Part shown: positions 8,884 to 61,276 of the stretch, in pieces | Layout: the number at the start of each line of letters is the position of its first letter | Position numbering within the stretch: position 1 is the stretch's first letter | Source of the DNA: Bacillus sp. 522_BSPC | Lineage (GTDB): Bacteria > Bacillota > Bacilli > Bacillales > Cytobacillaceae | Reading direction: 5' to 3' | DNA length: 63,881 nucleotides | NCBI RefSeq assembly: GCF_001076885.1 | Contig: NZ_JVDT01000122.1 | Location: forward strand, 1-63,881 | The notes under the pieces: generated by a model | What the model was told of the DNA's origin: nothing | Database searches by the model: none | What the model saw: the letters and a program-made list of their open reading frames with translations, nothing else | Position numbers and translations under genes: made by a program

Positions 8884-8910
8884 CAAAAAAAGGCCAAATG
8901 GCCTTTTTTT
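8884..8910. terminator. Terminator of the aap operon
   Basis: A perfect AAAAAAAGGCC / GGCCTTTTTTT hairpin with an AAAT loop directly at the end of aapP. The T-tract works in both directions. Confidence 0.85.
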
Positions 8911-9688
8911 AAAGTATCTGAGATAAGAAAGCTTTCGTCCGTTCATGCTTAGGATTGTCAAATAATTCTTCTGGTTTACCCATTTCTACAATTTCTCCTT
9001 TATCAAAAAGGATAATACGGTCTGCTACTTGTCTTGCGAATCCCATTTCATGTGTTACGACAAGCATAGTCATACCAGATTCTGCCAGAGTTTTCATAAC
9101 ATCTAATACTTCTTTTACCATTTCTGGATCGAGTGCAGATGTAGGTTCATCAAATAGCATTATCTTAGGCTGCATCGCTAATGCTCTTGCAATTGCAACA
9201 CGCTGCTGTTGCCCACCTGATAATTGTCCAGGGTATTTATTCGCTTGTTCAGGAATACCTACCCTTTCTAGCAAATCCTTTGCAATTTGCTCCGCTTTTG
9301 TTTTCTTCCACTTTCTCACCCAGATAGGAGCTAAAGAAATATTTTTCAAAATTGTCATATGTGGAAATAAATTAAAGGATTGAAATACCATTCCCGTTTC
9401 TTTACGAATCTCTTCAATATTTTTAACATCATCGGTTAATGCAATATCATCAACAATGATTTCACCTTTTTGAAATTCTTCTAAAGCATTAATCGTACGA
9501 ATAAAGGTTGATTTGCCTGACCCAGATGGTCCTAAAATAACGATAACCTCTCCTTGCTTAACCGTAAGATCTACATCCTTTAATACATGATGATCTCCAT
9601 ACCATTTATTCAATTTATTTACTTTAATAATATCTTCTCTCTCCGTTAAAGGGGTTGTTAATTTATTTACTCCAAATACACTTTCCAT
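8909..9688 (-). CDS. aapP: Amino-acid ABC transporter ATPase (AapP/GlnQ type)
   Basis: A 259-residue nucleotide-binding subunit. Walker [10 protein letters not shown] at 53-61, Q-loop Gln103, signature LSGGQQQR from 156, and Walker B IMLFDEP with Asp180-Glu181 are all intact. The N-terminal extension of about 20 residues before the core ([18 protein letters not shown]) is typical of AapP and BztD rather than GlnQ. It is the last gene of a four-gene operon with two permeases and a binding lipoprotein; 18 bases separate it from aapM. It would energise import of polar or general L-amino acids at the inner face of the membrane. Confidence 0.93.
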
Positions 9689-9706
9689 ATAATCCGATTC
9701 TCCTTT

Positions 9707-10906
9707 CTATCTCGTTCCAACACCAAGTGATTTTTCGATATGTTTACTTACATGGGACATTAAAAAGCAGAAAATGAAGTATATAAACGCAATGACAATG
9801 TATAACTCCATATATTTTCCTAGATATTCAGGGTTGGCAGCGATTTTTTTCCCCATACCAAGGAAATCCGCTAATCCTATCACCGCAACCAATGATGTAT
9901 CTTTAAAAACAGAAATAAATTGTCCAACCATTGCAGGAATAACGGCTTTTAAGGCTTGTGGCAAAACAACAAAAATCATTACTTTGACATTATTTAACCC
10001 AAGTGCCTGTGCTGCTTCGAATTGTCCTCTCGGAATCGATTGTAATCCACCGCGAATATTTTCTGCTAAATATGCGGCACTAAATAGGGTGAATGCAATC
10101 ATGGCACGAACAACATTGTCTAATTGAATACCTCCAAGAAACATAGGAAGCAATAATTGTGCAATAAATAAAACCATAATGAGAGGCATTCCACGAATTA
10201 ATTCTATATACAGAATACAGCAATACTTTATTATAGGCAGTTTACTTCGTCTACCTACTGCAAGTAATAAACCTATTGGAAAAGAACAAATAATTGCTAC
10301 CGACGCAATTACTAAAGTTAATAAGAATCCTCCCCAAACATTTGATTTTACAGGCTCTAATACTCCAAATCCGTTAATGATAGAAAGACAGATTGGAATA
10401 TATAATATCCATAGTACAAGCATAGGAATTTTTAATTTTGGAACATATTTCCCAACGAAATAAAAAACAACAATCGTAGCAATACATGAAAACAAGTATA
10501 CTTTGGATTCATTTTCTGTATACGGAAGAATGCCGAATACTAATAATAGAGCACCAAGACTAATTGCTACATGACCGATTATCCCTCTCCAAACTCCCCA
10601 AGAAGTACCTAATAACACAGACATAAATAAAAGGGATACCCACAATCTCCAAATTTCTTCTATTGGAAATTGCCCAACAAATAGTAGTCTCAAATTATCA
10701 GTGACAACATTCCATTCACTGGCAAATAAAAATTTCCCTATATTTGCAAGTAAATAAATTGTAAACATTAGGGTCACAATCGTTACTATTGCATTTTTCC
10801 AGTCTTTAAATAAATTATTTTTAAGCCATAACTGTAGTTTTTTCTGACTATTTAATTTTGTGGTTTCCATAACTGGTTCCGTGTTTTCTAATTGTATATT
10901 ATCCAA
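9707..10906 (-). CDS. aapM: Amino-acid ABC transporter permease (AapM/BztC type)
   Basis: A 399-residue permease with about eight or nine transmembrane segments. The C-terminal half carries the HisM-type transport domain with the EAA loop (EAAQALGLNNVKVMIFVVLP) that contacts the ATPase. The N-terminal half adds extra membrane helices, as in AapM/BztC and unlike the five-helix GlnP-type permeases. It pairs with AapQ to form the channel. The gene lies 9 bases downstream of aapQ. The family was first described in Proteobacteria, so its presence in a Bacillaceae genome is noteworthy but not unique as far as I know. Confidence 0.9.
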   Translation of the reverse strand: MDNIQLENTEPVMETTKLNSQKKLQLWLKNNLFKDWKNAIVTIVTLMFTIYLLANIGKFLFASEWNVVTDNLRLLFVGQFPIEEIWRLWVSLLFMSVLLGTSWGVWRGIIGHVAISLGALLLVFGILPYTENESKVYLFSCIATIVVFYFVGKYVPKLKIPMLVLWILYIPICLSIINGFGVLEPVKSNVWGGFLLTLVIASVAIICSFPIGLLLAVGRRSKLPIIKYCCILYIELIRGMPLIMVLFIAQLLLPMFLGGIQLDNVVRAMIAFTLFSAAYLAENIRGGLQSIPRGQFEAAQALGLNNVKVMIFVVLPQALKAVIPAMVGQFISVFKDTSLVAVIGLADFLGMGKKIAANPEYLGKYMELYIVIAFIYFIFCFLMSHVSKHIEKSLGVGTR

Positions 10907-10915
10907 TTCGCTTCC

Positions 10916-12088
10916 CTACCTTTCTACCAGCTGGAATTTTTTGTTGAAAAGATTCATTAACAGGGATGTAGTTAAGCTAAACAGTAAATATACAGAAATT
11001 ACAATTAATAGTGTCTCTAACGTATGTCCCGTTTGATTAATGATTGTATTTCCGATTCCAACAATATCTTGATATGCTACCGCCATCGCTAAGCTTGAGT
11101 TTTTTATTAAATTTAAATACTGGCTTGTCAACGGCGGGATAATTATTCTGATTGCCTGTGGAAAAATAATTAACCGAAGCGCAGTGCGACTTTTAAAGCC
11201 AAGTGCTTTTGCAGCTTCTGTCTGTCCTTTTGGAACGCCCATAATTCCAGCACGGACAATTTCTGAAATATAAGTAGATGTATAGATAGTTAGTGCCACG
11301 AGCACAGACATAAACCCAATAGATAAAGATGTTCCACCATCAAAAGAATTTCCATTAAAAACTGGAACAGATAGACCAAATGGGCCATTTCCTAAAACAA
11401 GAAAAGTAATAATCGCGCCAATTACTATTAATCCGATACTGGAGATTAGTGGATATGTAGATTTACCTGATTCTAATGATACCTTTGTTAATATTCTGAA
11501 TAAAAATACACTACCTACAATGAGGAGAATGAGTACGATTAACCAAATAAGCGTATTATCTTGTAATGTAAACCATGGGATGGATGCCCCTCTATTAGAA
11601 AAATAGAAAGAACCGATAGAGAGTGCTTCTTGTATTTTTGGCATCGGTAAAAATACGGCAAAATTCCATATAAATATTTGTACCAAAAGGGGAGTATTTC
11701 TAAAAACCTCTACATATACAGTAGCCACCTTGCTTACTAACCAGTTATCAGATAAACGTGCAACACCCACTATAACTCCGATAATACTTGCAAATATAAT
11801 TCCAAAGATAGAAACCTTAAACGTATTTAATAATCCTACCAATAATGCACGTATATATGGATCATCAGGTGTATAGCTAATAATAGATTCTGAAATCGGA
11901 AAAGATGCTTTTAAAGTTAAATAATCTAATCCTAATGTCAATCCTATTTGTTCAAGACCAGATATCACATTATTGACCATAAAAATAATCACTGTTCCTA
12001 CTATAATGACAAAGAGGATTTGAGCAATAATCGGTATTATTTTTCTATTTCTCCAAAGAGGAGTCGATGTTGTCTTTTTTACTTCCAC
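10916..12088 (-). CDS. aapQ: Amino-acid ABC transporter permease (AapQ/BztB type)
   Basis: A 390-residue permease. After the first membrane helix there is a long extracytoplasmic/loop region, then the transport domain with the EAA loop EAAKALGFKSRTALRLIIFP. The motif VEVFRNTPLLVQIFIWNF at about 135-155 is characteristic of the polar amino-acid permease family, and the break of the domain by an inserted segment (about 160-255) is typical of AapQ. It forms a heterodimer with AapM. It is separated from aapJ by an intergenic hairpin that could lower expression relative to the binding protein. Confidence 0.9.
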   Translation of the reverse strand: MEVKKTTSTPLWRNRKIIPIIAQILFVIIVGTVIIFMVNNVISGLEQIGLTLGLDYLTLKASFPISESIISYTPDDPYIRALLVGLLNTFKVSIFGIIFASIIGVIVGVARLSDNWLVSKVATVYVEVFRNTPLLVQIFIWNFAVFLPMPKIQEALSIGSFYFSNRGASIPWFTLQDNTLIWLIVLILLIVGSVFLFRILTKVSLESGKSTYPLISSIGLIVIGAIITFLVLGNGPFGLSVPVFNGNSFDGGTSLSIGFMSVLVALTIYTSTYISEIVRAGIMGVPKGQTEAAKALGFKSRTALRLIIFPQAIRIIIPPLTSQYLNLIKNSSLAMAVAYQDIVGIGNTIINQTGHTLETLLIVISVYLLFSLTTSLLMNLFNKKFQLVER

Positions 12089-12116
12089 TCTTTCTCACCT
12101 CTCACCTAAAAGAATA

Positions 12117-12154
12117 GGGGGAACTCAAAAGGGTATGACAATTTGAGAACCCCC
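12117..12154 (-). terminator. Intra-operon hairpin between aapJ and aapQ
   Basis: On the minus strand GGGGGTTCTCAAA pairs with TTTTGAGTTCCCCC, followed by TATTCTTTT. Such hairpins after binding-protein genes usually act as partial terminators or 3' stabilisers, allowing more binding protein than permease to be made. Confidence 0.7.
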
Positions 12155-12179
12155 TTATTTTTCAACTTAATAATTCATA

Positions 12180-13250
12180 TTAACGGAACGGAATAGAGTA
12201 CAATAATCCGCCATCGCTATATAATGCATTTTGTGTACGTTCTAATTTGAACACTGTATCAGGACCTAAGTTGCGATCATAAATTTCACCATAGTTACCG
12301 ACTTGTTTAATTACTTGGTAGGCAAAGTCATTAGATAGTCCTAATTGTTCACCAAGGTTTCCTTCTACTCCTAATAAACGTTGAATTTCTGGATTTTCAC
12401 TAGTTAAGAAATCATCTACGTTTTGAGACGTAATACCAAATTCTTCTGCTTGAATTGTTGCAAATACAATCCAAGTTACCGCATCTGCCCATTTTTCATC
12501 TCCATCTTTAACAGCTGGAGCTAAAGGTTCTTTTGAAAGTGTTTCATCTAAAATAATGTGCGCATCTGGATCTTGTAATGTAGACTGACGAGAAACCAGT
12601 CCTGATTTATCAGTTGTCCATGCATCAATAGAACCTTGCTCATATGCAGCTATAACAGCATCAGCGTTATCAAATGTTTGAGCTGTATAGTTAACGCCTG
12701 CCGCTTTCATTTGATCCGCTAAGTTTAATTCAGTTGTTGTTCCTGTTTCTACACCAATTGTTTTTCCTTCTAAATCTTGTAACGTTTTGATATTACTATC
12801 TTTCGGTACCATAATTCCTTGCCCATCGTAGAAAATTACTGGAGCAAAGCTTAAGCCTACTTCGGCATCACGGTTTGTTGTCCAAGTTGTGTTACGTACT
12901 AACACATCAACTTCACCAGACTGAACAGCGGTGAAACGGTCGGTAGCTGATAATGGTCTAAATTCAATTTTCGTTGCATCTCCAAGTACTCCTGCTGCAA
13001 TTGCTTTTGCAAAATCAACATCAAAACCAGTATTTTCTCCATCTGATCCTATGTATCCAAAGCCAGGAAGTGCATCATTAATACCAGCTTTTAAAGTTCC
13101 TCTTTCTTTAATAGTATCAAGTAGACTGCTAGAATTTGATGTTTCTCCACTGCTACCATCCTCGTCAGATCCTGTCTTACTTGAACAGCCGGCTAAAGCA
13201 AGTACAAGCACTAGTAAAATGCTAAGAGTAAGCGAAAAACTTTTTTTCAT
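12180..13250 (-). CDS. aapJ: Amino-acid-binding lipoprotein (AapJ/BztA type)
   Basis: A 356-residue extracellular solute receptor. The signal peptide ends in a lipobox L-A-G-C with the lipidated Cys22, followed by a Ser/Gly/Asp-rich linker (24-42) and the type 3 solute-binding domain starting LDTIKERGTLKAGIND. The stretch VQSGEVDVLVRNTTWTTNRD and the end TQNALYSDGGLLYSIPFR are typical of AapJ-class receptors. Proteobacterial AapJ is periplasmic; here lipidation tethers it to the outer face of the membrane, as expected for a Gram-positive cell. It is first in the aapJQMP operon. Confidence 0.92.
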   Translation of the reverse strand: MKKSFSLTLSILLVLVLALAGCSSKTGSDEDGSSGETSNSSSLLDTIKERGTLKAGINDALPGFGYIGSDGENTGFDVDFAKAIAAGVLGDATKIEFRPLSATDRFTAVQSGEVDVLVRNTTWTTNRDAEVGLSFAPVIFYDGQGIMVPKDSNIKTLQDLEGKTIGVETGTTTELNLADQMKAAGVNYTAQTFDNADAVIAAYEQGSIDAWTTDKSGLVSRQSTLQDPDAHIILDETLSKEPLAPAVKDGDEKWADAVTWIVFATIQAEEFGITSQNVDDFLTSENPEIQRLLGVEGNLGEQLGLSNDFAYQVIKQVGNYGEIYDRNLGPDTVFKLERTQNALYSDGGLLYSIPFR

Positions 13251-48723: not shown

Positions 48724-49970
48724 TTATTTACTAACAATCGGCAAATAAATAGAAAAAGTTGTTCCTTTGTTAACTTTACTTTTAATCTTGATTTTGCCGT
48801 TTAGGTGATGAACAATATTAAAGCAAACCGTTGTACCGATACCTGTTCCTTGTGTTTTTGTGGAGTAAAAAGGAGTTCCTAATCTGTTCAGTTCATCTTC
48901 AGACATTCCTTTTCCATTATCCATAATATTAATCTTTATATATTTTTCTTTTATTTGTTCGGATATAACCACTTCCCCCTTGCTCTCTATTGCTTCAATA
49001 GCATTCTTGATCATATTTATAAACAATTGCAGAATTTCATCTTGCCCAGCATTAATGAACAAGGGGTATGAACGTGATTAATAATTTTTACGTTATTTAA
49101 TAGTGCATAGGGGTTGATTATCTCTTCTACTTTTTTTAGAAAAACAGCTAAATCAATCTGTTCTTTAACCCCTTCATTTGGCCGAGCAAGTGATAAATAA
49201 TCATTTATAATTTTTTCAGCCCTGACTAATTCTGATCCCATAAGTGAAAGCATCTCTTGTTGTTTTTCTGTGATATTGGAGGATTCTTTCAATAAATGAG
49301 TGTATCCTTTAACAACCGTTAAAGGATTTCGTATTTCATGTGCAACAGAAGCGGCCATTTCGCCAATTAATCTTATCCGCTCTGTTTGCTGTTTTTGCTC
49401 CTTCTGCCTTTCTTGATAAGAGAGTGACTCTATTAGATAAATAGAGATAATAAAAGTAACGAGATGAGCTAAATATAAATAAACAATAAATGTTAAGGTT
49501 ATTTTATTTGTGAAAAATGAAGTAGCGATTAAATCAATGCTTATAGGAAATAACGATGTAATACAAGCTATCATTATTTTTTTTATGAAAGATTGGGTCT
49601 GTTTGTATCTTTTGATGGCATAATACAAAATGGGTAGTGATAACAGTACGATAATCATTGTCACTAATAATCCTGCATTAACGCCAATCATATATCTGTA
49701 AATCCCCATCACAACAGTTGTCAATAAACCTGCTGGAAACCCTCCATAGAAAAAAGCTATCAACCAAGGAATTGTCCTTAAATCATAAATATGCCCAGGT
49801 GCTATTTCTAAAGGAAATGTCATGGATAAAATTAATATGGCTGAACAATAAATAAAGGTGAATACTGTTTTATTTTTAATTTTCATTTTATGAAAATAAT
49901 AATAATAAATAAAAATTGGCACAACATTTAATAATAGAACGAATAAGTAATTGTCGAATCTGATCATCAT
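48724..49970 (-). pseudogene. KinB-like sporulation kinase, frameshifted
   Basis: A membrane histidine kinase split into two frames. The upstream part (49017-49970) has five or six membrane helices of the 5TM-LYT type and HisKA with His211 in VAHEIRNP. The downstream part (48724-49062) carries the ATPase domain: N box MIKNAIEAIE, G1 DNGKGMS and G2 GTGIGTTV. The frames join smoothly (HVHTP/LFINAGQDE) if one base is added at a run of four G on the plus strand (49063-49066). The joined length, about 424 residues, matches KinB, which phosphorylates Spo0F. The cause may be a real mutation or a homopolymer read error. Confidence 0.85.
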
Positions 49971-56752: not shown

Positions 56753-57349
56753 TCATCTTTGGAGCCCAACTAGTCTTTTTGGAAAAAGAGTATTAAGGAT
56801 TTTAAAGAGACAATAACCAAAAATAATCCCTAACGCATTTAAAAGAACATCATCAATATCCGTACTTCTCCCAATAAATAGTTGAGTAATTTCAATAAAC
56901 AATGGGATACCAATTGACATCCAAAACAGTGGAAAAAACTTTCTAAACTGTCGCCATAACAATGGAAGAAAAATCCCAAATGGCACGAAGACGACCACAT
57001 TTCCTAATAGATTAATAAGAGATACTTGGTTCCAATTACTAACTTGCTCATTAGAAATAGCTAAATAGGAAAAAATTGTTGAAAAAGGAATGAGGTTTAT
57101 GCTTCTTCCCCCTTCTAATCGTTGAATATAAAGTTTCTGTTTTCCATTCTCCATCGACATATACCATTGTGGAATAATGGTTTGGGATGCAACCCCAATA
57201 CAGAACAGGACAAATAGAAATAGTAATATTTCCTTATTCCATTTCCACTCTTGCTTCTTTAATCTAATGTAGAGAGTACGACATATTAAATAAATTGGCG
57301 CACCAAAAATCATATAAATTAGCATTGACTCTAAATACATTCGAATCAT
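56753..57349 (-). CDS. VanZ-family membrane protein
   Basis: A 198-residue protein with five membrane helices and the VanZ signature: NLIPFSTIF, NLLGNVVVFVPFGIFLPLLW and ITQLFIGRSTDIDDVLLNALG. VanZ proteins give low-level teicoplanin resistance by an unknown mechanism and are found in many glycan/lipid contexts. GGAGGATTCGA precedes the ATG. It is the last gene of an operon with an ECF sigma factor, a PadR regulator and a SEDS-type protein, so an envelope-stress response is likely. The distal gene lies 16 bases after the SEDS gene. Confidence 0.92.
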   Translation of the reverse strand: MIRMYLESMLIYMIFGAPIYLICRTLYIRLKKQEWKWNKEILLFLFVLFCIGVASQTIIPQWYMSMENGKQKLYIQRLEGGRSINLIPFSTIFSYLAISNEQVSNWNQVSLINLLGNVVVFVPFGIFLPLLWRQFRKFFPLFWMSIGIPLFIEITQLFIGRSTDIDDVLLNALGIIFGYCLFKILNTLFPKRLVGLQR

Positions 57350-57365
57350 TCGAATCCTCCAAAAG

Positions 57366-58598
57366 TTATGAGATATTTTTTCTGCGATTAATACTTAACA
57401 CAAGACCTATCAATAAAGCGTTAATAATGGTCGGCATTAGTCCATAGCTTATAAATGGCAACGATAAAGAGATAATTGGGAATAGCCCCATACACATTCC
57501 TATATTATAAATCACTTGGATACTATACAACGCAATCGCACCTATTAAGAGAAGCTTTCCATATCGATTTTTTATGTAACGAACATTTCGAATCATTTTT
57601 ATTATCAATGCACTAAATAAAATCACAATTACTACTGCTATTACATACCCAAATTGAGAGGAAAGCTGAAGAAATACGGTGTCTGTTCTATTAACAAAAG
57701 ACAATAACTCCATATCAGAAGAACCTATCCACTTGAGACTTGCCCACATTTTTTCTCGATATAAATATATCCAGCCAACATCTTGCGCATATCTATCAGG
57801 AAAAAGGAATCCTAATAATCTATGTAATCTTGCAAAAAAAGCATAGCCGAATAATAATATAAAAAGAACTGCACCCGTAACAATCGACAAGACGATTTGC
57901 TTTTTCGAAAAACTGCTCCAAAACAGCATAACAACCACCATAGTATAATAAATAAAGACAGTGGAAATACTATCATATCCTAAATAAAACAATATACTGG
58001 AAAAGAAAAAGAACAATAAAAAAGACAGATAGCTAAAATTTTTCTTGGTAAAAAGGGAAGCCCAAGCTAGCAGGAAGAACGGAATTGCCATTATTCCTTT
58101 AATGATAATTGGCCCAACTTTTAAATAGTTAATTCCGTTTATTGTAATATTGGAAAAAAGAATGACGGATAGTAATAATATGGATCCTATCATATAAAAT
58201 ACATAGCCTAATTCCTTACATTTCCGATAATCCAAAAACATGATTCCAACAACTATTCCAACTCCCAATAAAATGGTCCATAATTTCTCTGCTATAAATA
58301 ATAAATCTGACGTTATATTAGGTAAAAGTCCAATCATCAATAAGCAAACTGTACAAGCAAAAACCATCCAATCAACCGTTAGACGGTGCAGTTGATTTAA
58401 CTCCAGTCCCAATAGAATAGGACTTCCCATTTCTTTAATTGCTCTTTCTTCCGCTTCTTTTTCTTGTAACCCTTTTTTTATCCAACCTTCTTTAGCAAGT
58501 TGGATATGATGCTCCATTTCTAATTTAATTGAATCCTTTGCATCTTTTGATTTCACTTGCTCTATCACTTTATCTAAAAATATATGCCTTTTATTCAT
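57366..58598 (-). CDS. HAAS-SEDS fusion: FtsW/RodA/SpoVE-family protein with N-terminal prefix domain
   Basis: A 410-residue protein. Residues 1-70 form a soluble helical domain (VIEQVKSKDAKDSIKLEMEH) of the HAAS/permease-prefix type often coupled to PadR regulators. The rest has about ten membrane helices of the SEDS glycosyltransferase fold; Asp306 in FVNRTDTVFLQL aligns with the catalytic Asp of RodA/FtsW, and GLFPIISLSLPFISYG is the family end-motif. It may polymerise lipid II under stress, or sense envelope state for the sigma factor. The start overlaps padR by 8 bases. No class B PBP partner is adjacent. Confidence 0.88.
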   Translation of the reverse strand: MNKRHIFLDKVIEQVKSKDAKDSIKLEMEHHIQLAKEGWIKKGLQEKEAEERAIKEMGSPILLGLELNQLHRLTVDWMVFACTVCLLMIGLLPNITSDLLFIAEKLWTILLGVGIVVGIMFLDYRKCKELGYVFYMIGSILLLSVILFSNITINGINYLKVGPIIIKGIMAIPFFLLAWASLFTKKNFSYLSFLLFFFFSSILFYLGYDSISTVFIYYTMVVVMLFWSSFSKKQIVLSIVTGAVLFILLFGYAFFARLHRLLGFLFPDRYAQDVGWIYLYREKMWASLKWIGSSDMELLSFVNRTDTVFLQLSSQFGYVIAVVIVILFSALIIKMIRNVRYIKNRYGKLLLIGAIALYSIQVIYNIGMCMGLFPIISLSLPFISYGLMPTIINALLIGLVLSINRRKNIS

Positions 58599-59007
58599 TT
58601 ACGTACACCCAATCTATCAATTCTCTAATATCTTTGTTAGCTCCCCCTTCTACTTCCAACTTTTTTTCAAGCTTTTTTCCTTTTCGATCTATTCGGTAAT
58701 ATTTAACCTTTTTATCCTCCCATTCAGAAGCAATGATATTTTTCTGTTCTAAACGATGCAATAAAGTATAGATAAACCCTTCCTTTTTCTCAAATCTTTC
58801 AAAGCCACGGGCACGTAACAATTGTGTTAATTCAAAACCAGTTTTTCTATTATGCAGTAATTGTAAAACTGCTAATAGTACTTCCTCTTCCTTATCCTTT
58901 ATTTGAATTTTTTTTAAGATTTCTTTACGATGCTCCTCACTAAAAGGAAGATGATCAAAATAAGTCTTTTTCAAGCTAGATGGAAGGTTTTTTAGATGTT
59001 TTTCCAT
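58591..59007 (-). CDS. PadR-family regulator in the ECF operon
   Basis: A 138-residue protein. A 38-residue basic helical extension precedes the PadR winged helix (LLAVLQLLHNRKTGFELTQL, then YTLLHRLEQKNIIASEWEDK), which ends YYRIDRKGKKLEKKL. PadR repressors respond to phenolics or to membrane partners; here the neighbour carries a HAAS-type domain, the usual companion. It overlaps the sigma gene by 16 bases and the SEDS gene by 8, so translation is coupled. It could act as a cytoplasmic brake on the ECF circuit in place of an anti-sigma factor; this is inferred. Confidence 0.88.
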   Translation of the reverse strand: MEKHLKNLPSSLKKTYFDHLPFSEEHRKEILKKIQIKDKEEEVLLAVLQLLHNRKTGFELTQLLRARGFERFEKKEGFIYTLLHRLEQKNIIASEWEDKKVKYYRIDRKGKKLEKKLEVEGGANKDIRELIDWVYVNE

Positions 59008-59543
59008 TTTTCTTCATCTCCTATCTTTTTTAATAAATGCTTTGCTCTTCTAAGTCGTGTTTTGATAGTATTTTCATTTATTTTTAATATGGAAGAAATC
59101 TCGTTTATTGATAGTTCTTCAAAGTAAAAGAGAAAAATAATTTCCCGATATACGATTGGCAAATTCATGACAGCTTGAATAAGTAATTGCTCTTCTTCTT
59201 TTTGAAGAATTTCTTCTTCCACATTTTCATTTCTGTCTATCCCAAAAAGAAATTCATCATCTACTTTTACAACATTTTTTGCATACCAACTTTTCAAATA
59301 ATCTTTACAGCGGTTAATAGCTATTCTCCATAGCCATGTTCGTAAGCTAGATTTTCCCTTATATTTATTCAATGAATAATATACTTTTATAAATATATCC
59401 TGTGTTAATTCTTCGGCTATTGCTTGATTTCTCACATAGGAAAAAACCAAATGCAACAGCTCTTGTCCATATGTAATCATTATTTCTTCAAATACTTCTT
59501 CTTTATTGTCTATTTCATTCCAGCTTGCTGACAATTCTTCCAT
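58992..59543 (-). CDS. ECF-type RNA polymerase sigma factor
   Basis: A 183-residue sigma-70-family ECF factor. Region 2 (SYVRNQAIAEELTQDIFIKV, with SSLRTWLWRIAINRCKDYLK) and region 4 (PIVYREIIFLFYFEELSINE, then NTIKTRLRRAKHLLKK) are intact. No anti-sigma gene with a zinc motif follows, so the PadR or SEDS protein may take that part. The promoter 28 bases upstream fits the ECF consensus, suggesting autoregulation. It is the first gene of a coupled four-gene operon. Confidence 0.93.
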   Translation of the reverse strand: MEELSASWNEIDNKEEVFEEIMITYGQELLHLVFSYVRNQAIAEELTQDIFIKVYYSLNKYKGKSSLRTWLWRIAINRCKDYLKSWYAKNVVKVDDEFLFGIDRNENVEEEILQKEEEQLLIQAVMNLPIVYREIIFLFYFEELSINEISSILKINENTIKTRLRRAKHLLKKIGDEEKWKNI

Positions 59544-59570
59544 ACGATAACCCCCCTTACTTACTTATTA

Positions 59571-59597
59571 GACGATAAGATGACGGAAAAAGTTTGG
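59571..59597 (-). promoter_or_regulatory. ECF-type promoter of the sigma operon
   Basis: On the minus strand CCAAAC (59597-59592) and CGTC (59574-59571) are 17 bases apart, with the TTTTT block after -35 typical of sigma-M/V/X promoters. It lies 28 bases before the sigma start codon. Confidence 0.65.
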
Positions 59598-59624: not shown

Positions 59625-59985
59625 TTTTTGGTAGGTCCTTGGATTGGTGCTATTCCTTCTGTCATCGTCAGGCTATTACACTCGCCGATACAGGCAATTA
59701 TTGTTCTCGTAATTGTTGTGATTATTCAACAAATGGAGAGTCTTTTTGTTCAACCACAAATTATTGGAAAAAGGATGTCTATCCATCCAGTCACAGTAAT
59801 GGTTTTAGTTTTAGTTGCGGGGCGATTTATAGGTGTTATCGGCATGGTTCTTGTAATCCCAATCTTTGCTATTGTTAAAGTAATTGTTACACACACAAAC
59901 AGACTATGGAGAATTCGACAGGAAGAAAAAATACTTAAAAAAACTCCTGCGGTTTTAGATTATCACCTAATTCCGCAGGAGTTTA
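59625..59985 (+). pseudogene. AI-2E family transporter, 5'-truncated remnant
   Basis: The frame VGPWIGAIPSVIV, HSPIQAIIVLVIVVIIQQME, PQIIGKRMSIHPVTVM and RFIGVIGMVLVIPIFAIVKV is the C-terminal third of an AI-2E (PerM) family membrane transporter. The N-terminal two thirds are missing; the sequence starts abruptly at the ECF promoter. No in-frame start or ribosome binding site is present. The tail (RLWRIRQEEK and after) may be degraded and runs into the hairpin at 59937-59984. It is a remnant and was probably cut by the rearrangement that brought in the ECF operon. Confidence 0.82.
59937..59984 (-). terminator. Terminator of the MFS gene
   Basis: On the minus strand AAACTCCTGCGG pairs with CCGCAGGAGTTT, followed by TTTT. 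It overlaps the end of the transporter remnant. Confidence 0.75.
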
Positions 59986-59989
59986 TTTA

Positions 59990-61276
59990 TTATAACTGTT
60001 TCACTGCTTGTAAATTTCTCTTTTTCATTTCGAATTGTTTAAACATCACATAATAAATAAAAGCACTTATTATGGCAAGTATAGCAATAATCAAAAATGT
60101 CCATTTGAATCCAAACCACGCACTCATTGGAATAGATAATGGTGCAATCATTTTGGAAAAAGTAAACCTCAGACTAGCTGCTGCAAAATATTTTCCCCTT
60201 TGGTCCCGAGGAGCGATTTCCGATATAAAGCTTTGCTGGATTCCTGCTGTCATCAGTTCAGCAAAACTAAATAATAGCATCGCAAACATTAACCCCAAAA
60301 TCAAATTGGTTTGGCTAAACATAATAACTGCCGTTGCATAAATAAAGGAGGAGACAATAAATACATTCTTCTCTTTGTATTTAGACATCCATCTTGTCAC
60401 CATTATCGTAAATATAGCTACTACTAAACCATTTTCTGCTAGGATTAATCCAAATGCCTGCGTACTTTGAATCTCTAACGACCAACTGCCGATAGAAAAT
60501 AATCTTTGGGTTGAAACCATTTCATCGACATAAACAGGCAGTAATAAATCTAATTGCATAAAAGTTTGTCCGATTAATACCCCTGCTAAAATAAACATTA
60601 AAAAAGTTCGATCTCTGACAATAACCTGATAATCTTTCATCTGATTACCTAACGCCATCATCCAATTCTTTTTTGTGCCAGTTGCCTCTTTGTATGGTGG
60701 GGCTGTTTCTGCTATCCAAATTTTTAAAACAATACTTAATAGAATATTTAATAGTCCAGCTGCTAGTAAAAGGAAGAATCGATAATCCTTATAAAAGAAC
60801 CCTCCTAATATAGGGCCTATTACTACTGCAATATTAGTAGACGTATAGAATATCGCAAATACACTACTGCGATCTTTCTCCTTAACTACATCAGCTACCA
60901 TCGCTTGACTTGCTGGCCAATAGATACTTGTAAAAAGGCTAATCACTGTAAAACAGATAAAACTAATGGCAGGAGAATCAAGCCAAGGAGAGCTTGCTAA
61001 AGCAAAGACTAGGTAAGAAATCCCTTGCGCCAAGCTTGATAGGACCATCATTTTCTTTCTTCCGTATTTATCTGCATAATAGCCACCAAGTAGATTGGCA
61101 ACAACCGAAAACCCTTGTGAAAGTATTAATAAGAACCCAGCAATCGATTTGCCAAATGATTCTGTAAAATAAATCGCTAAAAACGGGAAAAACATCCAAA
61201 ATGTAACATTAACGGTTGATTCACCAGCAAGACGAATCTTTAAATTTCGATCCCAATCTCTAAGTCGCATCGTCAT
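59990..61276 (-). CDS. MFS transporter
   Basis: A 428-residue major facilitator with twelve helices. Motif A appears as GGYYADKYGRKKMM between helices 2 and 3. The segment ASQAMVADVVKEKDRSSVFA and VVIGPILGG fit the MdtG/YttB-like drug efflux branch. Substrate unknown. The start may be the first ATG or MRLRDWDRN two codons later. It is monocistronic, ending at a strong terminator. Confidence 0.88.
   Translation of the reverse strand: MTMRLRDWDRNLKIRLAGESTVNVTFWMFFPFLAIYFTESFGKSIAGFLLILSQGFSVVANLLGGYYADKYGRKKMMVLSSLAQGISYLVFALASSPWLDSPAISFICFTVISLFTSIYWPASQAMVADVVKEKDRSSVFAIFYTSTNIAVVIGPILGGFFYKDYRFFLLLAAGLLNILLSIVLKIWIAETAPPYKEATGTKKNWMMALGNQMKDYQVIVRDRTFLMFILAGVLIGQTFMQLDLLLPVYVDEMVSTQRLFSIGSWSLEIQSTQAFGLILAENGLVVAIFTIMVTRWMSKYKEKNVFIVSSFIYATAVIMFSQTNLILGLMFAMLLFSFAELMTAGIQQSFISEIAPRDQRGKYFAAASLRFTFSKMIAPLSIPMSAWFGFKWTFLIIAILAIISAFIYYVMFKQFEMKKRNLQAVKQL

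Follow-up and report, generated by a model that had tools for sequence, protein, structure and literature searches.

How is an extracytoplasmic function (ECF) sigma factor kept in check when its operon holds no gene for a separate anti-sigma factor? The question is raised by a minus-strand operon (56753–59543) in a stretch of 63,881 nucleotides (nt) from Bacillus sp. 522_BSPC (contig NZ_JVDT01000122.1), referred to at its full length as the window, where four open frames encode, in order, an ECF sigma factor, a PadR-type regulator, a membrane protein in which a HAAS domain precedes a SEDS (FtsW/RodA-like) domain, and a VanZ-like protein. An initial annotation of this DNA had pointed to the tight packing of the four genes and to the lack of an anti-sigma gene, and both points stand: the sigma and PadR genes overlap by 16 nt, the PadR and HAAS-SEDS genes overlap by 8 nt, the gap between the HAAS-SEDS and VanZ genes is 16 nt, and no separate anti-sigma gene is present among the four. 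The brake that appears to be absent is probably already there, as the front end of PadR. The operon is proposed to be a self-amplifying ECF sigma switch of the kind represented by sigC-lstR-lmo0421 of Listeria, in which the N-terminal arm of PadR would serve as the anti-sigma factor and HAAS-SEDS as the receptor; from the sequence comparisons given below, this reading is assigned a probability of about two in three, and a role of the operon in envelope stress is surmised.

The sigma factor (183 amino acids, aa; 58992–59543, on the minus strand like all features of the operon) is of the sigma-C type (NF006930, 246.5 bits, cut-off 198), and the PadR protein (138 aa; 58591–59007) is of the LstR type (PF03551; NF006931, 130 bits, cut-off 112) and is predicted to be an anti-sigma/repressor fusion. 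All family assignments of the initial annotation (ECF sigma, PadR, HAAS, SEDS and VanZ) exceed curated Pfam or NCBIfam cut-offs, those of Pfam being Sigma70_r2, r4_2, PadR, FTSW_RODA_SPOVE and VanZ. Within PadR, a winged-helix domain (aa 47–112; 58672–58869; PF03551) follows an N-terminal extension (aa 1–42; 58882–59007) that was delimited by profile searches and an NCBIfam cross-match. Homologues of HAAS-SEDS were found in 11 of 13 genomes of the genus at E 1e-30, with the genome of the window counted, and in 110 of 397 genomes of the order at E 1e-25, representing 46 of 136 genera. Eighty regions, part of these genus and order matches, were fetched and make up 81 loci together with the window; in 76 of the 81 the sigma, PadR and SEDS genes lie in that order on one strand (including L096, where the sigma frame is in two pieces). 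With 80 named loci (the best 80 of 105) and the Listeria locus the set comes to 162, or 148 unique loci once identical SEDS copies are removed, among which PadR is adjacent in 142 and the full sigma-PadR-HAAS-SEDS triad is found in 137.

The extension of PadR, which the initial annotation had singled out as unusual, is real, but it is a feature of the whole family of sigma-linked PadR proteins. The first 40 residues of these proteins share the consensus MExRLKxLKKxM....F..L.FTExHR..I...I, and all but one of the 137 conserve F22. At five loci that carry PadR and HAAS-SEDS without a sigma gene, the F22 column holds three gaps, an I and an S, and PadR either has nothing ahead of its winged helix or opens with an unrelated stretch; different N-terminal stretches are also seen in the PadR proteins of L251, L252 and L254, next to which no sigma gene was found. 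A hydropathy rule predicts a transmembrane helix in none of the 137 extended PadR proteins, that of the window included, and PadR is consequently not classed as a membrane anti-sigma factor, having no membrane helix of its own. A Pfam scan of the extension returned weak, scattered matches and nothing more, and no match to a solved structure was obtained at E 10.

A relationship emerged when a profile of the extension was searched against other proteins. Among the open reading frames of the 162 loci, a single non-PadR protein fell below E 0.3, a membrane protein encoded behind an ECF sigma gene (L104; E 1.1e-5). In the 397 genomes of the order, 194 matched at E 0.05, PadR proteins included, and the matches comprised at least 49 non-PadR frames of about 200–570 aa with the segment at the N-terminus; a search of the class at E 1e-4 gave matches in 25 of 348 genomes, from which 16 carriers were taken, 15 of them new. 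The resulting collection of 54 distinct non-PadR carriers consists of 38 of the 49 listed (11 were left out), the L104 protein and the 15 from the class. In all 54, the gene is preceded on its own strand by an ECF sigma gene, and the segment is followed by a hydrophobic helix, at about aa 42–94 by the hydropathy rule, which was the only such helix in all 39 carriers measured. Segments start between 41 nt before and 106 nt after the end of the sigma gene in the 38 carriers measured for this, 31 of which overlap it or lie within 1 nt. The outer parts vary: one of eight scanned carriers exceeded the Pfam cut-off for DUF4030, and others touched DUF4179, DUF4367 and DUF4871 below cut-off.

The match also holds in the other direction. 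A profile built from the 54 membrane segments only recovered the PadR frame of the window at E 6.3e-11, the next of 479 frames standing at 1.3, and it matched 132 of the 137 sigma-linked PadR proteins (LstR at 6.5e-6) and none of the five sigma-less ones. The NCBIfam PadR model NF006931 matched all eight carriers tested through positions within 1–43 (E 3.5e-8 to 0.006), with scores far under the cut-off that applies to whole proteins, which is what a partial match should give. The PadR and membrane-protein segments agree at L5, L8, M12, F22, E24, I/V30 and I34, the profile having itself selected the segments compared. In a tree of sigma factors (a subset of 75 PadR-linked, 38 membrane-protein-linked and 8 others), the PadR-linked and membrane-protein-linked sigmas are largely separate, 65 of the former falling into one clade (support 97). 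The sigma-side cytoplasmic segment is common to PadR and to proteins with the gene order and topology of anti-sigma factors. What is new here is this match of the PadR extension to the cytoplasmic N-terminal segment of anti-sigma-like single-pass membrane proteins: the extension looks like an anti-sigma segment that would bind the sigma factor, and PadR itself would be the anti-sigma factor of the operon. The initial annotation had named PadR as a candidate for the inhibition step, and a segment of this kind fused to PadR is the likely reason.

The operon also appears to be under the control of its own sigma factor. Upstream of the sigma gene lies an exact match to an ECF-type promoter (AAAC-N17-CGTCTAA; 59568–59595), predicted to be autoregulatory. 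Of 75 homologous upstream regions, 70 have the pattern AAC-N16..18-CGT[CT] ahead of the sigma gene, compared with 3.3 of 75 in Markov shuffles (75 of 77 regions were kept, sigma matches below 190 bits having been dropped), and the spacer is 17 nt in 60 of those 70 loci. In 59 regions anchored on the pattern, L071 being left out as misplaced, AAC and CGT are invariant by construction and the informative positions are the base in front of AAC, which is A in all 59, and those flanking CGT, where the majority −10 sequence is TCGTCTA (T 52, C 54, T 51, A 58). The same pattern stands before 32 of 38 operons for a sigma factor and a membrane protein (1.2 of 38 in shuffles). This conserved promoter, whose activity is predicted, fits the published autoregulation. 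A wider regulon was sought and rejected: the strict pattern gave 2 sites in the genome of the window and fell below a reversed control in 12 of 13 genomes of the genus, which is indistinguishable from chance. The second site (L127, contig 240 of the same genome, 4618–4645, minus strand) precedes an operon for a membrane protein and an ABC exporter and is possibly there by chance; another genome (G010) has a site one base away from this sequence.

If PadR proteins of the LstR type were solely DNA-binding repressors of their own promoter, the extension could be a dimerization or stability element and no anti-sigma function would be needed. The winged-helix signature is kept across the PadR family, and in Listeria the sigC promoter is derepressed by loss of LstR or by a triple change in its winged helix, as reported in PMC6624303. 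The altered leucines (L90, L92 and L93 in the numbering of L246), however, sit in the stretch LYILLHLLE, where their replacement may spoil the fold, and the words EMSA, electrophoretic and footprint are absent from PMC6624303. No operator dyad common to the 69 anchored upstream regions was seen; exact inverted repeats of at least 6 nt occur in 33 of the 69, mostly as A/T runs and at varying positions. Repression alone also gives no reason for the extension to turn up again in membrane proteins encoded behind ECF sigma genes, and as the whole explanation it is judged unlikely.

The HAAS-SEDS protein (410 aa; 57366–58598; NF038403 and PF01098) combines a HAAS, or permease prefix, domain (aa 15–67; 58398–58556; NF038403, 40.7 bits, cut-off 30), with a GxP motif at aa 58–60 (58419–58427), and a SEDS membrane domain (aa 97–407; 57378–58310; PF01098). 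The aligned catalytic aspartate noted in the initial annotation, Asp306 (codon 57681–57683), does align with the TD of solved RodA chains. Residue counts were taken over 145 of the 148 unique homologues, SEDS frames below 330 aa being dropped. In the column of the catalytic aspartate, which belongs to extracellular loop 4 in SEDS polymerases, D is found in 111, N in 30 and E in 4; the 34 replacements often lie in intact surroundings (HTNFVF), and a FastTree phylogeny, on which close sisters differ, needs 15 or more changes to account for them. SEDS polymerases conserve a QPSE-K motif in their second extracellular loop. It is lacking from the window protein and lost from the family, E being present in 1 of 145 (the column has 123 gaps) and K in none of the 145, whereas both E and K are present in the four SEDS paralogues of the same genome. 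The GxP motif of the HAAS domain is near invariant, with G58 in 144 and P60 in 133 of 145. At two loci, L311 and L312, the sigma factor, the extended PadR and the HAAS domain are kept, but PF01098 finds no match in the short membrane part, which stops before the Asp-bearing SEDS half (the alignment to the SEDS profile reaches positions 194 and 212 of 423); the likeness of these two proteins to each other is confined to HAAS, and their membrane part may be a truncated SEDS domain.

These counts bear on the suggestion of the initial annotation that the peptidoglycan polymerase itself is part of the switch, and on the related possibility that HAAS-SEDS is a stress-induced, working polymerase that backs up FtsW and RodA as the effector of the operon. 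The latter would accord with the aspartate of the window protein, with the near-invariant core motifs of the SEDS domain and with the genes behind the triad, where, judged by eye, none besides VanZ recurs and a same-strand frame of 70 aa is missing within 400 nt in 37 of 81 loci; Hauf et al. (PMC6624303) suggested that the protein might serve as a back-up when specific drugs are present. Against it, asparagine or glutamate takes the place of the catalytic aspartate in the 34 homologues above, while the D262A change inactivates RodA of E. coli according to PMC10449877; QPSE-K is lost; L311 and L312 lack the catalytic half; and Lmo0421 of Listeria did not replace FtsW1 or RodA and did not alter sensitivity to wall antibiotics under the conditions tested in PMC6624303. 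A working polymerase as effector is therefore quite unlikely, and an active polymerase as the switch was given up as the leading view on the same grounds. A receptor role is favoured because the aspartate is variable, QPSE-K is lost, GxP is kept, L311 and L312 do without the catalytic half and RodA D262A is inactive. The part that the initial annotation gave to the prefix domain has fared better, since a connection to PadR through HAAS agrees with a proposal published in PMC11237479.

That VanZ is the true output of a glycopeptide-response cassette is highly improbable, for although VanZ is the next gene behind the triad in 7 of 148 loci, having changed at least 4 times on the SEDS tree, and a HAAS-VanZ fusion is mentioned in PMC11237479, it was not seen there in the other 141, and the best score of the window protein against NCBIfam models of glycopeptide-resistance VanZ is 47.6 bits, where the cut-off is 375. 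The window VanZ (198 aa; 56753–57349) does exceed the cut-off of PF04892 (94.9 bits, cut-off 30.1) and is a lineage-specific fourth gene; at one of the seven loci (L081) the VanZ frame has 82 aa only. The conserved core is made up of the first three genes and VanZ lies outside it, so that, of the four-gene order envisaged by the initial annotation, the triad is conserved and a four-gene unit was rejected. At L312, a VanZ-like frame was recognized by eye some 1.8 kb downstream. Presence of the sigma gene changes at least 4 times on the SEDS tree. When that tree is rooted on the SEDS paralogues of the same genome, the sigma-less loci come together in one clade at its base (support 85), and because of this basal position PadR and HAAS-SEDS are possibly an older dyad that sigma joined later, its anti-sigma segment fusing to PadR.

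The proposed sigma switch would work as follows. In the resting cell, the PadR arm (aa 1–42) would hold the sigma factor while the body of PadR docks on the HAAS domain of HAAS-SEDS, so that the complex is tethered to the membrane in place of a transmembrane helix belonging to the anti-sigma factor itself. The SEDS fold, mainly a receptor rather than a housekeeping polymerase, would sense a ligand or the state of the membrane, perhaps a wall precursor carried on a lipid, or a drug that binds such a precursor; sensing would alter HAAS and PadR and free the sigma factor, which would then drive its own operon and so raise the amount of receptor and, in the Niallia lineage of the window, of VanZ. 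PadR may bind DNA as well. A further-reaching interpretation is put forward tentatively, at somewhat less than even odds: that a polymerase fold has been turned into a receptor controlling a sigma factor with no need for proteolysis of an anti-sigma factor, a single-pass anti-sigma factor having been split, its sigma-holding segment now part of a soluble PadR and its task as sensor passed to HAAS-SEDS, with PadR combining the parts of anti-sigma factor, DNA-binding repressor and receptor adaptor.

Several observations weigh against the proposed switch. That the 54 membrane proteins are anti-sigma factors is judged from their gene order and topology, and because they were retrieved with the extension profile, part of their resemblance to the extension is built in. 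AlphaFold2 renders the extension as two low-confidence helices (block pLDDT 47–56) next to a sound winged helix (pLDDT 77–94). As the five sigma-less loci make up one clade, the joint change of extension and sigma may be a single event. After all, 111 of 145 homologues retain the catalytic aspartate, and P374, P381, S384 and G386 of the SEDS core are near invariant, so some SEDS activity may remain. Finally, the published view takes LstR for a repressor of its own promoter and Lmo0421 for an effector (PMC6624303). Should the PadR arm nevertheless prove to be an anti-sigma segment, it would account for at least part of the half of ECF265 that has no known anti-sigma factor, would recast the published LstR data from Listeria, and would show a way in which a membrane anti-sigma factor could be converted into a soluble adaptor whose receptor can be exchanged.

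The window copy of the operon looks inherited in place, because the flanking genes are kept in near-relative loci: among the nine tested, the MFS gene is kept in eight and the LysR gene in four (at 83–85%). Just upstream of the operon (59628–60053, plus strand) is a C-terminal remnant of a gene for a transporter of the AI-2E family (PF01594, from profile position 237), with a stretch of 94% identity in L045 and none found in the other eight near-relative loci tested. Elsewhere in the window, a histidine kinase appears to be split into two overlapping minus-strand frames for its kinase and ATPase parts (48724–49062 and 49017–49970), by frameshift or sequencing error, and an amino-acid ABC transporter (8909–13250, minus strand) has two long permeases (399 and 390 aa), an architecture familiar from proteobacterial AapJQMP rather than from Bacillaceae. 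In other genomes, HAAS-SEDS genes with no PadR or sigma gene found alongside occur at L095 and L097; the two host genomes (G130 and G017) each have a second HAAS-SEDS match, that of G130 being a full triad (L117). The homologue of Niallia taxi (L247) sits on the 1.44-Mb megaplasmid pMEGANia.

The window operon is a relative of the known sigC-lstR-lmo0421 operon of Listeria, so the system is not without precedent (PMC6624303). The Listeria locus (L246) has the three genes in the same order at near-zero spacing, the promoter pattern, the PadR extension and a HAAS-SEDS protein, with identities to the window of 48% (sigma), 35% (PadR) and 29% (HAAS-SEDS, nearly full length); unlike in the window, the next gene lies on the opposite strand and there is no VanZ. 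Loss of LstR raises expression of the operon about 140-fold, from a promoter reported to be fully sigma C dependent (PMC6624303). The term anti-sigma is absent from PMC6624303 and PMC3721983, and a search of the available literature found nothing that names both LstR and anti-sigma. Compared with FtsW, RodA and SpoVE polymerases, the window HAAS-SEDS shares the family profile, the catalytic aspartate and the PFISYG region, whereas its family carries the HAAS prefix, has lost QPSE-K and varies at the aspartate. A HAAS-PadR dyad with GxP has been described together with a HAAS-FtsW/RodA fusion (PMC11237479), of which the FtsW/RodA example, CAC98500.1, is taken to be Lmo0421. The window likewise has a GxP-bearing HAAS domain, fused to a membrane domain and encoded beside PadR; where PMC11237479 sets out the dyad, it is proposed without an ECF sigma factor or an anti-sigma-like segment on PadR. 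PadR repressors of ECF265 have been placed among the groups without an anti-sigma factor in a 2022 review (PMC8999054), and the operon sigma factor would belong to ECF265 by this association with PadR. About half of ECF265 sigmas are accompanied by a single-pass anti-sigma factor, control of the group being described as little known (PMC8092216). A parallel is sigma P, placed in ECF265c2 (PMC8791391), with its anti-sigma factor RsiP and sensor PbpP (PMC8092216). The two systems share an AAC −35 element and a literature group that includes PadR-linked sigmas; they differ in arrangement, the putative anti-sigma segment of the window being carried by a soluble PadR without a transmembrane helix. 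By analogy, a protein of the wall-synthesis type would act as the sensor in both, PbpP in the sigma P system and SEDS in the window.

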